A stretch of DNA of 64,000 nt from Arsenicicoccus dermatophilus (lineage in GTDB: Bacteria; Actinomycetota; Actinomycetes; Actinomycetales; Dermatophilaceae): contig NZ_JAKZHU010000001.1 of NCBI RefSeq assembly GCF_022568795.1, forward strand, positions 2,480,001-2,544,000, read 5' to 3'. The stretch's first letter is position 1; each line of letters starts with the position of its first letter. A program made the translations under genes and the position numbers. Under the pieces are notes generated by a model, which worked only from the letters and a program-made list of their open reading frames with translations, did not search any database and was not told the origin of the DNA. Below, piece after piece: positions 876-51,116 of the stretch.

Positions 876-993
876 TGTCCGGCGGCGTCCTACTCTCCCA
901 CACCGTCACCAGTGCAGTACCATCGGCGCTGTAAGGCTTAGCTTCCGGGTTCGGAATGAGACCGGGCGTTTCCCTTACGCTATGACCGCCGTA
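876..993 (-). rRNA. rrf: 5S ribosomal RNA
   Basis: On the minus strand the segment begins TTACGGCGGTCATAGCG and contains the conserved loop block CCGAACCCGGAAGCTAAGC and the 3' block GGGAGAGTAGGACGCCGCC. The terminal halves are complementary, forming helix I. Length is about 118 nt, as expected for 5S. It is the last gene of the 16S-23S-5S operon, about 75 bases after the 23S. Ends are placed by homology and may be off by a few bases. Confidence 0.97.
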
Positions 994-1067
994 ACTCTAT
1001 CGACTTGTCAACAAACCAGGAAGGTTTGTGTGTCGGGAGCTACACAGTGGACGCGAGCAATCTTCGG

Positions 1068-6037
<4,970 letters not shown>

Positions 6038-6638: not shown

Positions 6639-6712
6639 TAGCGGGGGCAGGATTTGAACCTGCGACCTCCGGGTTATGAGCCCGGCGAGCTACCGAGCTG
6701 CTCCACCCCGCG
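6639..6712 (-). tRNA. Initiator tRNA-Met (anticodon CAT)
   Basis: The minus strand folds as a tRNA of 74 nt with anticodon CAT. It begins CGCGGGG and ends CCCCGCTA, so position 1 does not pair with position 72, and three G-C pairs close the anticodon stem (CGGGCTCATAACCCG). Both are hallmarks of initiator tRNA-fMet rather than the elongator. The 3' CCA is not encoded (CGA follows). Confidence 0.95.
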
Positions 6713-17239: not shown

Positions 17240-18577
17240 GTGAGCGACATCCCCCGCCGGTCGGCCGGCCGCGCCATACGCCTCGCCGCCCTCCCGCTCG
17301 GGCACGCCGGTCGCACCGCCGCCGGGCTCGGACGCCTGCTCGGCGGCGCCCCCGCGGAGGCGGTGGCCGCGCAGGTCGCCGCCCGGACCGCGGACCAGCT
17401 CTTCAGCGTGCTGGGGCAGCTCAAGGGCGGCGCCATGAAGGTCGGCCAGGCGATGTCGATCTTCGAGTCCGCGCTTCCCGACGAGATCGCCGGACCCTAC
17501 CGGTCGGCGCTCACCGCCCTGCAGGACGCCGCCCCCGCCATGCCCGCCACGACCGTGCACCGCGTCCTCGCAGCCGAGCTGGGGCCCGACTGGCGGTCAT
17601 CGTTCGCGGACTTCGACGACACCCCGGCCGCCTCCGCGTCGATCGGCCAGGTCCACCGGGCCACCTGGGCGGACGGGCGCGCCGTCGCCGTCAAGGTGCA
17701 GTACCCCGGCGCCGGCGAGGCGCTCATGTCCGACCTGCGCCAGCTCTCCCGCGTCGCGCGGCTGTCGGGCGGGCTCGGCCCCCTCGGGGCGATGGGGACC
17801 GGCATCGACCTGCGGGCCGTCACCCAGGAGCTGCAGGACCGGATGAGCGAGGAGCTCGACTGCACCCTCGAGGCCGACGCCCAGCGGCGCTTCGCGGCGG
17901 CCTTCGCCGACAGCGAGCACTTCGCGATCCCCCAGGTCCTCGCCGGGACCGGACGCGTGGTCGTCATGGAGTGGCTGGACGGGATGCCGCTGTCCCACAT
18001 CGTCCGGGACGGCACCCAGGAGCAGCGTGATCACGTCGGGTCGGCCTACCTGGACTTCCTGCTCGCCGGCCCCGACCACGTAGGCCTGCTCCACGCCGAC
18101 CCCCACCCCGGCAACTTCCGGCTCACCGCGGACGGGCGGCTCGGGATCCTCGACTTCGGTGCCGTCAACCACCTCCCAGGCGGCATCCCCCCAGCCGTCG
18201 GGCGACTCCTCGGACTCGCCCTGACCGGGGACGACACGGCACAGGCCGTGCTCGCCGGTCTCGTCGACGAGGGCTGGGTCCACGCGGACGCGGACGTCGA
18301 CGCGCAAGAGCTGGCGGAGTTCATCGCGCCCTTCCTCGAGCCCGCCCGCCACGACCGGTTCAGGTTCGCCCGGGGCTGGCTGCGCGAGTGCTTCGCCCAC
18401 GTCACCGAGCCCCGCTGGCAGCCGGTCCTCGCCGTCCTCGACCTGCCGCCGGACTACCTGCTCATCCACCGGGTGTGGGCCGGTGGGATCGGGGTGCTCT
18501 GCCAGCTCGGAGCCGAGGTCGAGACCCGCGCCATCCTCACCCACTGGCTGGACGAGCTGGAGCTCCCTCCCACCTGA
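17240..18577 (+). CDS. ABC1/AarF (UbiB-like) atypical kinase
   Basis: 445 residues with family hallmarks in order: the inhibitory KxGQ motif (MKVGQAMS) near residue 70, the alanine-rich nucleotide loop AASIGQVHRA, the VAIK-type lysine (VAVKVQYPG) near 152, the catalytic HADPHPGNFR near 290 and DFGAV. UbiB/ADCK proteins are ATPases or kinases of lipid and quinone metabolism; in mycobacteria the counterpart (Rv3197) was linked to macrolide resistance alongside WhiB7. No membrane segment is obvious. GTG start; a GACAAT hexamer ends six bases before it, so it may have its own leaderless promoter inside the end of the upstream gene. It converges with a small zinc-ribbon gene. Confidence 0.9.
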   Translation: MSDIPRRSAGRAIRLAALPLGHAGRTAAGLGRLLGGAPAEAVAAQVAARTADQLFSVLGQLKGGAMKVGQAMSIFESALPDEIAGPYRSALTALQDAAPAMPATTVHRVLAAELGPDWRSSFADFDDTPAASASIGQVHRATWADGRAVAVKVQYPGAGEALMSDLRQLSRVARLSGGLGPLGAMGTGIDLRAVTQELQDRMSEELDCTLEADAQRRFAAAFADSEHFAIPQVLAGTGRVVVMEWLDGMPLSHIVRDGTQEQRDHVGSAYLDFLLAGPDHVGLLHADPHPGNFRLTADGRLGILDFGAVNHLPGGIPPAVGRLLGLALTGDDTAQAVLAGLVDEGWVHADADVDAQELAEFIAPFLEPARHDRFRFARGWLRECFAHVTEPRWQPVLAVLDLPPDYLLIHRVWAGGIGVLCQLGAEVETRAILTHWLDELELPPT

Positions 18578-18869: not shown

Positions 18870-18989
18870 TCAGCGACGGCGGCGGCGCGCCACCGCCATA
18901 CGCACCTCGTGAGCACTGCGGGGACGGGCCTGGACGCGGGCCTGCTCGGCGCGCACCCGGACGATCTCGTGGCTGACGTGGGCAAACAC
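18870..18989 (-). CDS. 39-residue basic peptide downstream of whiB7
   Basis: A GTG-initiated frame of 39 codons with AAGGAG seven bases before the start. The product begins MFAHVSHEIVRV and ends in a run of arginines after MAVA; net charge is strongly positive. Position is 40 bases after whiB7 and before a terminator, so it would be on the whiB7 transcript. I do not recognise a family. The strong ribosome site is the main evidence, so it remains a prediction. Confidence 0.55.
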   Translation of the reverse strand: MFAHVSHEIVRVRAEQARVQARPRSAHEVRMAVARRRRR

Positions 18990-19029: not shown

Positions 19030-19317
19030 TCAGGCCGCGACCTCGGTCTTGCGGGGGCGGCCCCGGGGCCGCTTGCGGGGGACGACGGCGCCGGCGAGGA
19101 CGAGCTCGCCGCCCCAGACCCCCCACGGCTCGCGCCGGTCGAGGGCGCCGGCCAGGCACTCCTCCCGGACGGGACAGGTGCCGCAGAGGGCCTTGGCGAA
19201 CTCCACCCCCTCCGGGGTCTGCGCGAACCACAGCTCCGCGTCGTTGTCCTGGCACGGGATCGCGCTGTCGGCAGCAGCGCCGGCGACTCTGTGGTCGATC
19301 AGCTCCGCGAGTGTCAT
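19030..19317 (-). CDS. whiB7: WhiB7/WblC-type iron-sulfur transcriptional regulator
   Basis: 95 residues. WhiB signature: first Cys in PCQDNDAELWF, then CGTCPVREEC, giving the four cysteines that bind [4Fe-4S], followed by the turn EPWGVWGGE and a C-terminal AT-hook KRPRGRPRK. The AT-hook separates WhiB7 from other WhiB proteins. WhiB7 binds region 4 of the main sigma factor and activates antibiotic-resistance genes, including itself, at promoters with an AT-rich patch next to the -35. AGGAGG lies five bases before ATG 19317. The 585-base leader holds a WhiB7-type promoter, an upstream ORF and a hairpin. Location beside uvrD2 matches mycobacteria. Confidence 0.93.
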   Translation of the reverse strand: MTLAELIDHRVAGAAADSAIPCQDNDAELWFAQTPEGVEFAKALCGTCPVREECLAGALDRREPWGVWGGELVLAGAVVPRKRPRGRPRKTEVAA

Positions 19318-19438
19318 CTCGTCCTCCTGGTGATGTCGCCCCGAGATGAGGGGCGTCGGGCGGCCCGGGTGCGGGCCCTGGTGGGTGGTGGTCGTATGGC
19401 GGGTGGTGTGGCGCGTGGCGCGAGAGGTGCCGGACACG

Positions 19439-19483
19439 CACGAAGGCCGCGGATCCCGGATGTCGGGTTCCGCGGCCTTCGTG
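19439..19483 (-). terminator. Attenuator-like hairpin in the whiB7 leader
   Basis: A perfect 15-bp stem (19439-19453 with 19469-19483); its loop holds a further CCCG/CGGG pair. It starts 19 bases after the stop of the leader ORF and lies about 120 bases before whiB7. A second short stem (19337-19342 with 19350-19355) lies just before the whiB7 ribosome site. The placement fits ribosome-controlled attenuation as described for whiB7 in mycobacteria and wblC in Streptomyces. Confidence 0.7.
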
Positions 19484-19502
19484 AGGAGGACCAGGTCTGG
19501 GT

Positions 19503-19829
19503 CTAGACCGGTGGCCCCCCGAAGGACGGGACGACATCGTGGGAACGGGACGGGACACGGACGTCGGCACCCGGACGCGTGGCGCTGCGCTTGACGACGA
19601 GATCGACAGCGGTGCCCTCGAAGCGACCGAGCAGACCGGTGCCGTAGGACAGGACGGACGCGTCGCCGACAGCGCCACCGGTGGTGGTGCCGTGGCCCGA
19701 CATGCTGCTGCCGCGCAGGGCAGTGCCACGCAGACCGGTGCCCGGCCGACCGGCGCCGAGGGTCCAGGCGCGCGTGGGCAGCACGAGGCCGACGACGTCG
19801 GTCATCCTCACGATCGTGGTGCTCTCCAT
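19503..19829 (-). CDS. Leader ORF upstream of whiB7 (108 codons)
   Basis: A frame of 108 codons begins at ATG 19829 with GAGGAGG seven bases upstream, one of the strongest ribosome sites in the window. The product starts MESTTIVRMTDVVGLVLPTR, is low in complexity (Gly/Thr/Ser rich) and ends SFGGPPV. No domain is recognised. It lies wholly in the whiB7 leader, and its stop is 19 bases before a strong hairpin. I infer a regulatory leader ORF whose translation senses ribosome-targeting antibiotics. It is longer than most reported whiB7 leader ORFs, and a peptide with its own function cannot be excluded. Confidence 0.6.
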   Translation of the reverse strand: MESTTIVRMTDVVGLVLPTRAWTLGAGRPGTGLRGTALRGSSMSGHGTTTGGAVGDASVLSYGTGLLGRFEGTAVDLVVKRSATRPGADVRVPSRSHDVVPSFGGPPV

Positions 19830-19908
19830 GGCGGGACCCTCCTCTCGGGCATCGATGGCGCTCGCGCGCCGGCGTGGGACACGGCTCGCACCGCGTCGGG
19901 ACATCCGG

Positions 19909-19947
19909 ACTGTATCCGGGGCCTCGCGAAGGGGGCAACGGAATTAA
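19909..19947 (-). promoter_or_regulatory. WhiB7-type autoregulated promoter
   Basis: In transcript sense: AT patch TTAATT (19947-19942), three bases, -35 TTGCCC (19938-19933), 18-base spacer, -10 TACAGT (19914-19909). An AT-rich patch just upstream of the -35 is the feature through which the WhiB7 AT-hook recognises its promoters. Start of transcription would be near 19902, about 70 bases before the leader ORF. Confidence 0.65.
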
Positions 19948-19998
19948 CGGCAGGTCCCCCTCACGGAGCGACAAGGACTCCGGAAGGACCAGGAATCA

Positions 19999-22131
19999 TC
20001 ATGTCGCAGAAAGGATCTCGTCAGGCTCCGCGCCGCCGAGCAGGGCCAGCACCGACGCGCCGTAGAGGTCGAGCTTGCGCGCGCCCACCCCGGACACCTG
20101 GGCCAGCTGCGCGAGGTCCTCAGGACGCCGCTCCGCGATCGCCGTGAGCGTCGCGTCGGTGAACACGACGTAGGCCGGGACGCTCGCCGCCGCGGCCGCC
20201 CCACGACGCCACTCCCGCAGCCGCTCGAAGGTCGCCTCGTCGTAGGTCGGCGGGCAGTCGGCACAACGACCGGTCTTGCGCTCCGCCGCGGTCCCGAGCT
20301 CGGTGCCGCAGGTGCGGCAATGCGCGACGCGGGCGATCTTGGGGCCGGCAGCGCGCGAGCCACCACGGCCGCCCGCGCGCGGCGTCGAGCGCGCCCCCTC
20401 GCCGAGCACCGACGCGGCGTCGTCGAGGAAACGGCTCGGCCGGCGCCCGCCACGACCCCCGACCGTGCGAGAGGCCGCCCAGGACAGGGCCAGCTCCTTG
20501 CGGGCGCGGGTCAGACCGACATACAGCAGCCGTCGCTCCTCCTCGATCGCCTCCCAGCCCTCGGCCATGGAGATCGGCATCAGCCCGTCGCTGCAGCCGA
20601 CGAGGTGCACCACGTCCCACTCCAGACCCTTGGCGCTGTGCAACGACGCCAGCGTGACGCCCTGGACGGTGGGCGCGTGCTGCGCCTGGTCGCGCTCGGT
20701 CAGGTCCGCCACCAGATCGCTCAGCCGGGACTCGGGCCGGGCGGCGACCAGGTCGTCGGCCAGAGCCACCAGAGCCTGCAAGGACTCCCAGCGCTCGCGG
20801 ACGGCACCCCCGCCGGCCGGCGGCGTGGCCCCCCACCCCACACCGACGAGGACCTCCCGCACCAGCTCACCCAACGGCAGCGAGCCGTCGTCGGTGCGCG
20901 CCTGGCCGCGCAGCAGCAGCATCGCGTCGCGGACCTCCCGGCGGGAGAAGAACCGCTCCCCGCCGCGCACGAGATAGGGCACCTGCTCCTCCGACAGCGC
21001 CGTCTCGATCGCCTCGCTCTGCCCGTTGGTGCGGAACAGCACCGCGATCTGCGCCGGCGGGGTGCCCGCATCGATCCGAGCCTTGATCGCCGCCGCCACC
21101 CCACGGGCCTCCGCCTGGTCGTCGTCGTAGGCCGTCAGGGTCGGCGGCGCGCCGTCCACGGCCTGGGCCTGCAGCTGGACGAGGGCGTGGGCAGCCCCGC
21201 TGCGGCTCGCCCGGGCCTGCGCGCGGAGCATGACATTGGCCAGACCGACGATCTGCGGAGTCGAGCGGTAGTTGCGGACCAGCTTGACCACCGCCGCGTC
21301 GGGATAGCGCGCCGCGAAGCCCAGCAGGTGCGCGGGCGAGGCCCCGGTGAAGGAGTAGATCGTCTGGGCCGCGTCGCCCACCACGCAGATGTCCTGGCGG
21401 TCGCCGATCCACAGGTCGAGCAGGCGCTGCTGCAGGGCGTTGACGTCCTGGTACTCGTCCACGACGAAGTGGCGGTACTGCCCCTGGACCTCGCGCGCGA
21501 TCGCCGGGTGCTGGTCCAGGATCCCCGCCATGATCAGCAGCACGTCCTCGAAGTCGATGACCCCGCGCTCGCCCTTGACCTCCTCGTAGGCCTGCAGCAG
21601 CCGCGCCATCGCCGTGTGGTCCAGCCCCGCCAGGTCCCGGCGGGCGTGCCGCGCCGCCGCGGGATAGCTCTCCGGGGTCAGCAGGCTCACCTTGGCCCAC
21701 TCCACCTCGGCGGCGAGATCACGGATGGCGGGCCGGTCCAGCTGCAGGTGCAACCGCGCCCCGGCCTCGGCGACGGCCCCGGCCTTGTGCGCCATCACCT
21801 CCGGCGCCGCACCCCCGATCGCCCGCGGCCAGAAGTAGTGCAGCTGGCGCAACGCCGCAGCATGGAAGGTGCGCGCCTGCACCCCCGCGGCACCCAGGTC
21901 GCGCAGGCGGGTGCGCATCTCACCCGCGGCGCGCGCCGTGAACGTCACCGCCAGCACCCGCTGCGGAACGTAGACCCCGGACCGGACGCCGTAGGCGATG
22001 CGGTGGGTGATCGCCCGGGTCTTGCCGGTGCCCGCGCCCGCGAGGACGCACATCGGCCCGAGCGGCCGCTCGGCGACCGCCCGCTGCTCGGGGTCGAGGG
22101 CGGCCAGGATCTGGTCAGGTGAGGCAGACAT
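19999..22131 (-). CDS. uvrD2: ATP-dependent 3'-5' DNA helicase UvrD2
   Basis: 710 residues of superfamily 1A. Walker A AGAGTGKT at residues 31-38, Walker B/motif II DEYQD near 223, motif V-type block SAKGLEWDVVHLVG and motif VI VGLTRARKELALS. After the motor come a tetracysteine module (CRTC and CADC, about residues 608 and 631) and a C-terminal HRDC domain ending near DLYGASVLALLGG. This order is diagnostic of actinobacterial UvrD2, in which the cysteine module is needed for unwinding. It lies upstream of whiB7 in the same direction, as in mycobacteria, with nudC 45 bases upstream. The whiB7 promoter begins inside the 50 bases after its stop. Confidence 0.95.
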   Translation of the reverse strand: MSASPDQILAALDPEQRAVAERPLGPMCVLAGAGTGKTRAITHRIAYGVRSGVYVPQRVLAVTFTARAAGEMRTRLRDLGAAGVQARTFHAAALRQLHYFWPRAIGGAAPEVMAHKAGAVAEAGARLHLQLDRPAIRDLAAEVEWAKVSLLTPESYPAAARHARRDLAGLDHTAMARLLQAYEEVKGERGVIDFEDVLLIMAGILDQHPAIAREVQGQYRHFVVDEYQDVNALQQRLLDLWIGDRQDICVVGDAAQTIYSFTGASPAHLLGFAARYPDAAVVKLVRNYRSTPQIVGLANVMLRAQARASRSGAAHALVQLQAQAVDGAPPTLTAYDDDQAEARGVAAAIKARIDAGTPPAQIAVLFRTNGQSEAIETALSEEQVPYLVRGGERFFSRREVRDAMLLLRGQARTDDGSLPLGELVREVLVGVGWGATPPAGGGAVRERWESLQALVALADDLVAARPESRLSDLVADLTERDQAQHAPTVQGVTLASLHSAKGLEWDVVHLVGCSDGLMPISMAEGWEAIEEERRLLYVGLTRARKELALSWAASRTVGGRGGRRPSRFLDDAASVLGEGARSTPRAGGRGGSRAAGPKIARVAHCRTCGTELGTAAERKTGRCADCPPTYDEATFERLREWRRGAAAAASVPAYVVFTDATLTAIAERRPEDLAQLAQVSGVGARKLDLYGASVLALLGGAEPDEILSAT

Positions 22132-49008: not shown

Positions 49009-49171
49009 GAGCCTTCTGGTCGGCCTCGTGGGCCAGGGTGGAGTGCAGGGGGATGGCGCCTGCTCGACCACCCTAGGAGACACTCGACACGCCGTTCCAT
49101 AGCCCGAGATGACCACTTCATCACGATTGTCCGCCCTGCGGTTCCTGGCTCGCTTTGCTACGGTGGCGGCG

Positions 49172-51116
<1,945 letters not shown>

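Follow-up and report, generated by a model that had tools for sequence, protein, structure and literature searches.

Organization and conservation of the whiB7 leader

The analyzed window, a stretch of 64,000 nucleotides from Arsenicicoccus dermatophilus, contains a whiB7 locus that reads on the minus strand in the order UvrD-like helicase gene, WhiB7-type promoter, Shine-Dalgarno site of an upstream open reading frame (uORF), uORF of 108 codons, hairpin, and whiB7 (Table 1). The whiB7 product matches the Pfam family Whib (PF02467) with 58.2 bits against a cut-off of 23.6, and no NCBIfam model matched it at an E value of 0.001. Its translation contains a GVWGG turn and a C-terminal AT-hook RGRP (in KRPRGRPRK), the combination of a G(V/I)WGG turn with such an AT-hook being what we take to be the hallmark of WhiB7. 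Among the 170 loci of our first comparison set, a uvrD-like match was present in 155 and an ABC1-like match in 62, the flanks of many others being too short to show one. The ABC1-family neighbour in the window also matches NCBIfam NF050082 (macrolide-binding ATPase MABP-1) with 445 bits, below the cut-off of 800. Directly after whiB7, a basic ORF of 39 amino acids with its own Shine-Dalgarno-like site lies at 18870-18989 on the minus strand; tblastn detected relatives of it in three of the four genus mates (L002, L003, and L004) and nothing convincing in the other loci, and Pfam gave no match to it. Elsewhere in the window are a TPP riboswitch at 49168-49279 on the plus strand (55.8 bits; gathering score 54.3), an rRNA operon (16S, 23S, and 5S) at 877-6035 on the minus strand, and a tRNA at 6639-6712.

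Table 1. Features of the whiB7 locus, in window coordinates and ordered as read on the minus strand
Feature	Position	Strand	Basis or remark
UvrD-like helicase with HRDC domain, upstream	19999..22131	-	Pfam; synteny
AT patch TTAATT	19942..19947	-	3 nt above -35; WhiB7 site by position
-35 TTGCCC (19938-19933), 18-nt spacer, -10 TACAGT (19914-19909)	19909..19938	-	sequence, relatives
uORF Shine-Dalgarno GAGGAGG	19838..19844	-	sequence
uORF, 108 codons, ATG at 19829, ends GGPPV, TAG 19505-19503	19503..19829	-	frame conserved, peptide nearly neutral
Internal element GGCACCGGTCTG, first copy, putatively pause-like	19731..19742	-	sequence
Internal element GGCACCGGTCTG, second copy	19632..19643	-	sequence
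Predicted antiterminator 5' arm, last uORF codons	19505..19531	-	fold; covariation of segment
Predicted antiterminator 3' arm, overlaps terminator 5' arm	19469..19498	-	fold
Terminator-like hairpin, 15 bp, arms CACGAAGGCCGCGGA/TCCGCGGCCTTCGTG, poor U-tract	19439..19483	-	sequence, fold; conserved
whiB7, 95 aa, ATG at 19317	19030..19317	-	C-x2-C-x5-C cluster and further Cys upstream, GVWGG, RGRP
ABC1-family protein, convergent with whiB7	17240..18577	+	Pfam; synteny

Two sets of leaders were compared. Removal of 5 duplicate leaders reduced the first set of 170 loci to 165, of which 21 lacked the promoter pattern and 144 had both promoter and uORF. The second set of 159 loci was reduced to 152 by removal of 7 duplicates; one lacked the promoter and one the uORF, and the remaining 150 carry promoter, uORF, and hairpin. 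Some genera occur in both sets, so the second set repeats the comparison on different genomes but is not phylogenetically independent of the first. Within these sets, we take genus g105 to be Streptomyces and genus g90 to be mycobacteria.

An earlier note on this DNA had read a TTAATT three bases above the -35, a uORF with a GAGGAGG site, and a 15-bp hairpin separated from the uORF stop by 19 nt, all of which we recovered base for base, and had placed whiB7 about 120 bases beyond the hairpin, the distance being 121 nt. Considering the promoter layout (TTAATT-3 nt-TTGCCC-18 nt-TACAGT), a transcription start near 19902 is a reasonable prediction. In the first set, the gap between AT patch and -35 was 3 nt in 123 of the 144 leaders, a count obtained with a promoter script that favours 3-nt gaps wherever a choice exists, and the spacer was 18 nt in 131. 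In the window and in its relatives, whiB7's own promoter carries the AT-rich site 3 bp upstream of its -35, the position given for the WblC motif in the accessible part of a published study (PMC7157823). Hairpins were counted by pattern because a fold-based finder merged neighbouring helices; they were found in 136 of the 144 first-set leaders and in the 150 second-set leaders. No Rfam family reached its gathering score within 19300-19960, where just two miRNA models appeared, far below their gathering scores. Its anatomy places the leader of the window among the published whiB7/wblC uORF attenuators. This conserved anatomy supports the proposal of the earlier note that a WhiB7-type promoter and uORF-dependent attenuation precede whiB7, and attenuation via uORF, terminator, and antiterminator is in print for Streptomyces and mycobacteria, as far as the accessible parts of the papers go (PMC11550727, PMC10727445, PMC7157823, PMC13393426).

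Alternative pairing at the end of the uORF

The extended hairpin of the window leader has a folding energy of -37.0 kcal/mol and a poor U-tract, with 2 T in the 12 nt that follow it, which speaks against a strong intrinsic terminator. Window RNA up to the 3' arm of the terminator folds as an antiterminator (-33.9 kcal/mol), the 3' side of which uses the first bases of the terminator 5' arm, and the rest of the RNA, with the antiterminator hairpin covered, folds as the terminator (-40.6 kcal/mol). In the minimum free energy structure of the full RNA, the terminator is retained next to a shortened antiterminator, so that mutual exclusion would depend on kinetics and the stem's foot.

The covariation test drew on 129 of the 144 and 147 of the 150 leaders, condensed to 45 and 27 representatives, respectively. 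On average, uORF ends bound their own downstream strand with -21.36 kcal/mol and those of other clades with -16.94 kcal/mol (z -9.3, 45 representatives), the second set gave a z of -6.5 (27 representatives), and 0 of 20000 permutations in each set were as strong as own pairing. The own partner was among the five strongest in only 21 of 45 and 18 of 27 representatives, and compared with shuffled partners its mean z was -1.41, with 12 of 32 below -2. When 32 of 46 selected antiterminator regions were placed in one multiple alignment, the terminator arm was invariant; as this alignment is not structure-aware, the claim of covariation rests on the permutation test. Fold and covariation together describe an antiterminator made from the uORF end and the terminator arm.

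Since the last uORF codons, PPV included, form this covarying arm, GGPPV looks like an RNA constraint, with CCACCGGTCT as the antiterminator arm. Rare codons also cluster at the uORF end, as would follow if this segment were governed by pairing instead of codon choice: AGA/AGG accounted for 56 of 126 Arg codons in the last eight uORF codons vs 7 of 585 in the body (first set), and CCA for 73 of 232 Pro codons vs 4 of 474. The low AGA/AGG share of first-set bodies, compared with 260 of 8363 Arg codons in neighbouring genes, hinted at avoidance of rare codons as selected speed, an idea that we dropped because uORF bodies of the combined 267 leaders match neighbouring genes (about 0.04 in both). 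The uORF bodies of these 267 leaders do differ from neighbouring genes in the share of CGT (0.32 vs 0.07), GGT (0.26 vs 0.11), and GAT (0.38 vs 0.10) among the codons of their amino acid, perhaps through avoidance of RNA structure.

The earlier note had pointed to GGPPV as a Pro-Pro sequence that could slow ribosomes and had proposed to look for it, together with the hairpin, in aligned leaders. The hairpin is conserved, and so is the uORF frame, but a PPV end occurs in just 48 of the 144 uORFs (PPI in 6, PPG in 3, and PPA in 2), and in other clades the uORF closes with EPWRDPA or VDRGHT and has no Pro-Pro there. Leader peptides of erm genes offer a precedent for a drug- or sequence-specific arrest peptide, for which GGPPV at the stop would be the stall site, and the PPV ends and a somewhat lower pN/pS in the last 12 codons (0.73, CI 0.51-1.02) would agree with such a role. 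However, GGPPV belongs to an RNA arm whose sequence covaries with that of its partner and which holds rare codons, the Pro-Pro end is missing in other clades, and the conserved peptide sequence expected of a specific arrest-peptide uORF was not found, the pN/pS of the uORF being 1.05 (CI 0.93-1.19) and its body neutral. Considering pN/pS, rare codons, and covariation, we reject arrest at GGPPV as the main role of the uORF and regard this explanation as highly improbable; nor does GGPPV appear to be kept chiefly as a ribosome-slowing Pro-Pro pair, although a local slow-down at PP-V-stop may occur in the clade of the window.

Evolution and amino acid content of the uORF

An open frame of 107 codons is expected by chance with P about 0.21 at the composition of the window and is by itself weak evidence for a uORF; we take the uORF as real because its anatomy is conserved in relatives, and not because the frame is open. 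First-set uORFs had a median of 79.5 codons (quartiles 69 and 92, n=144), the shortest having 36 and the longest 178, and those of g105 had 88 to 115 (29 tested), so that 108 codons, which the earlier note had found far longer than the short ORFs of mycobacteria, lies within the range of relatives and is not exceptional. The uORFs of g90 had a median of 61 codons (30 tested) and those of seven named Mycobacterium loci 41-52 codons; in this comparison, the short mycobacterial uORFs are one branch among relatives. These short uORFs are Ala-rich, with a mean Ala fraction of 0.31 in g90 (loci L199-L228) and of 0.28-0.41 in six named Mycobacterium uORFs vs a mean of 0.14 in the rest, which is in line with the alanine-starvation response reportedly described by Poulton in 2024.

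Across 33 independent pairs from the 144 leaders, pN/pS was 1.05 in the uORF and 0.19 (CI 0.14-0.24) in whiB7. Indel lengths were a multiple of three in 46 of 64 cases in the uORF vs 34 of 163 in the remaining leader, 26 of the 33 pairs being wholly in frame and 7 not, and the third codon position was the most G+C-rich in 98 of 99 uORFs. Frame conservation and third-position G+C are sequence-based indications that favour translation of the uORF, and together with a pN/pS of about 1 they lead us to conclude that its frame is kept while its peptide is nearly free. A pairwise run with loose gap costs (49 pairs; indels in multiples of three in 150 of 448 cases in the uORF vs 112 of 550 outside; pN/pS 0.96 in the uORF body and 0.33 in whiB7) was set aside because it over-aligned unrelated uORFs, and the stricter alignment of 33 pairs was used instead. 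Synonymous sites were less variable in the uORF than in whiB7 (pS 0.163 vs 0.252, a comparison biased by the choice of the pairs for uORF similarity), which suggests some constraint at the nucleotide level.

The conserved frame and start region might also be expected of a functional small protein whose ORF happens to precede whiB7. Yet pN/pS is about 1, neither Pfam nor NCBIfam matched the 108-codon product, and in close relatives with 81% identical DNA the uORF proteins are only 65-67% identical (L003/L004 and L005/L031); on the basis of pN/pS and the absent matches we reject this explanation and give it next to no weight.

Amino acid coverage was tested in 133 of the 144 first-set leaders (those without a patterned hairpin or with more than 125 codons removed) and in 134 of the 150 second-set leaders (more than 125 codons removed), and the 267 combined leaders were used for pooled amino acid, codon, and element counts; shared descent was handled by clustering and a turnover test only. 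First-set uORFs contained 18.21 different amino acids vs 17.27 when residues were shuffled among uORFs (sd 0.09), and second-set uORFs 18.62 vs 17.71 (z 10.6), with a z of 3.9 to 7.1 in each of six groups. The excess was essentially confined to the uORF reading frame: in the first set, z was 10.6 in the coding frame, 1.9 and 1.7 in the other frames, -0.1, 2.6, and -0.6 in antisense, and 0.7, -0.7, and -1.1 in the noncoding leader, and in the second set frames +1 and +2 gave 0.0 and 2.2, frame +2 being slightly above the shuffles (3 of 300), like the first-set antisense frame with a z of 2.6. It persisted after clustering below 42% identity (z 8.5, 59 representatives) and after both uORF ends were dropped (z 6.6). 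In the turnover test, which used 63 pairs of relatives, missing amino acids were refilled at changed sites more often than with shuffled residues (18.23 vs 17.42, 0 of 2000), as with Cys, Tyr, and His at the exchanged sites of L005/L031, and the second set agreed (z 7.6, 61 pairs). Shuffles within groups gave 18.42 observed vs 17.31 for the 267 uORFs and 18.03 vs 16.99 for the 70 of the window's family and order (0 of 1000 each), and all twenty amino acids were present in 97 of the 267 (21.1 expected, maximum 35). Exactly one Tyr was found in 93 of 133 uORFs (47.9 expected) and exactly one Cys in 80 of 133 (47.8 expected).

This excess bears on the conventional attenuator, in which a sufficiently long uORF serves as a neutral spacer, its amino acid content has no role, and drugs act by stopping any translation. 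Such a spacer would account for the neutrality of the peptide and for exceptions to the coverage: the window uORF has 17 amino acids (no C, N, or Q; 18.5 expected for its length), the four genus mates have 16, 15, 19, and 18, and E and Q break the rule in both sets. In the first set, no deficit of absences was found for W (57 vs 57.1 expected), E (24 vs 23.7), or Q (18 vs 20.0), and in the second set E was absent more often than expected (28 vs 16.0), W less often (15 vs 35.7), and Q no better than chance (13 vs 10.1). Against a neutral spacer speaks the excess itself, which appears in both sets, essentially in frame only, and again in the turnover test, while length-matched windows of neighbouring real proteins had none (z -0.8 to -4.1, 10 draws). 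We hold the neutral spacer to be possible but unlikely; the comparison suggests that the length of the uORF and its near-complete amino acid use matter, and not the protein it spells.

The window uORF also carries two full copies of an internal nucleotide element. Matches to GGSACCRSTSTG (at least 11/12) were present in 90 of the 267 uORF bodies, whereas codon-shuffled bodies gave 3.6 on average and reverse complements 2. All 90 were in frame, and their median distance from the uORF start was 99 nt. They occurred in 27 of 29 uORFs of g105, 33 of 70 of the window's family and order, 18 of 63 of the named genome records, 6 of 24 of the class draw, 3 of 14 of f36, 3 of 24 of f35, and in none of g90 (30) or f38 (13). 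The third-codon T of the element is 91% conserved although the encoded amino acid varies, so that nucleotides are what is constrained. The spacing of G-10, Y-1, and G+1 agrees with the elemental RNA-polymerase pause signal as given in the accessible part of PMC12288461, and the element thus resembles an RNA-polymerase pause site, at which a pause could let the ribosome catch up. Pairing of the element with the downstream strand of the antiterminator was not convincing (median fractional rank 0.28 among uORF windows; own partner -14.84 vs others -14.39).

A proposed generic elongation test and its relation to known attenuators

It is very likely, in our view, that the leader is a ribosome-mediated transcription attenuator of the intrinsic-resistance regulator WhiB7, in which the uORF body would serve as a generic elongation test, its frame kept and its peptide drifting. 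For the organism of the window, we infer transcription start, ribosome occupancy, termination, and induction as follows. The promoter, which WhiB7 itself could activate, would be transcribed into the leader by RNA polymerase while a ribosome loads at GAGGAGG. If all 108 codons are finished in time, the ribosome at the stop would cover the antiterminator 5' arm, the terminator would fold, and the transcript would end. If elongation fails anywhere in the uORF (a drug, a missing charged tRNA), the last uORF codons would pair with the downstream strand and remove the foot of the terminator 5' arm, and whiB7 would be transcribed; whiB7 is probably switched on, then, when ribosomes cannot finish the uORF. 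With such a generic test, any elongation inhibitor or a shortage of almost any charged tRNA would free the antiterminator, and general sensing of elongation probably explains a long uORF without a conserved peptide.

With more reserve, we lean towards a broader reading in which the whiB7/wblC uORF is an all-amino-acid probe. Selection would keep it open and long and would retain one or more codons for nearly every amino acid, with the peptide and the residue positions left to drift, and the internal element may delay RNA polymerase and so synchronize the start of the race. As the ribosome would finish the uORF only if nearly every charged tRNA and elongation step works, one attenuator could report general translation competence. 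WhiB7 would then respond to failing translation in general instead of serving primarily as an antibiotic sensor, and the mycobacteria, whose uORFs are short and Ala-rich, would be a specialised branch. A peptide-neutral, nearly amino-acid-complete uORF would explain without drug recognition how one attenuator answers chemically unrelated ribosome drugs as well as starvation, would account for long leaders, and it predicts that loss of the only Tyr or Cys codon blinds the switch to that one amino acid.

The whiB7/wblC uORF attenuator of Streptomyces and mycobacteria was reportedly described by Lee in 2022 and Burian in 2018. Attenuation and its induction by drugs and amino acid starvation are in print, in the accessible parts of PMC11550727, PMC12421871, PMC13236596, PMC4128351, PMC10727445, PMC7157823, PMC13393426, PMC12121999, PMC10287673, and PMC4974804. 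A peptide-neutral, nearly amino-acid-complete uORF also fits the observation in M. abscessus that whiB7 became the most induced transcript under a toxin which inactivates one serine tRNA, along with a fraction of the initiator tRNA (PMC10287673), and the presence of tRNA-synthetase, tRNA, or amino acid genes in WhiB7/WblC regulons (PMC10727445, PMC7157823), both as given in the accessible parts of these papers. Drug-induced stalling inside the whiB7 uORF is stated to be untested in the part of a 2025 paper available to us (PMC12121999). While anatomy and mechanism of the attenuator were already known, the covarying antiterminator at the uORF end, the near-neutral peptide, the amino acid excess, and the internal element are added here, amino acid completeness across the class being the part that would surprise; the accessible parts of the literature searched hold no mention of amino acid coverage in the whiB7/wblC uORF, which the primary papers may state.

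As far as the accessible parts of the sources describe them, the window and the whiB7/wblC attenuator have in common a promoter with an AT-rich site, a uORF, a hairpin like a Rho-independent terminator, an antiterminator, and whiB7 downstream (Dinan 2014, PMC4128351; PMC11550727; PMC10727445). The uORF of the window is about twice as long as those of the named Mycobacterium loci and resembles those of g105 in length. The toiL uORF of E. coli topAI-yjhQ, a different system, is similar in that one uORF answers several classes of ribosome-targeting antibiotics, according to the accessible part of PMC12121999. The ilvB1 attenuator of M. tuberculosis shares the choice between terminator and antiterminator by a translated uORF; however, amino acid operon attenuators of this kind carry regulatory codons of one amino acid group in the part of PMC13236596 available to us, whereas the whiB7 uORFs, taken together, cover nearly all amino acids.
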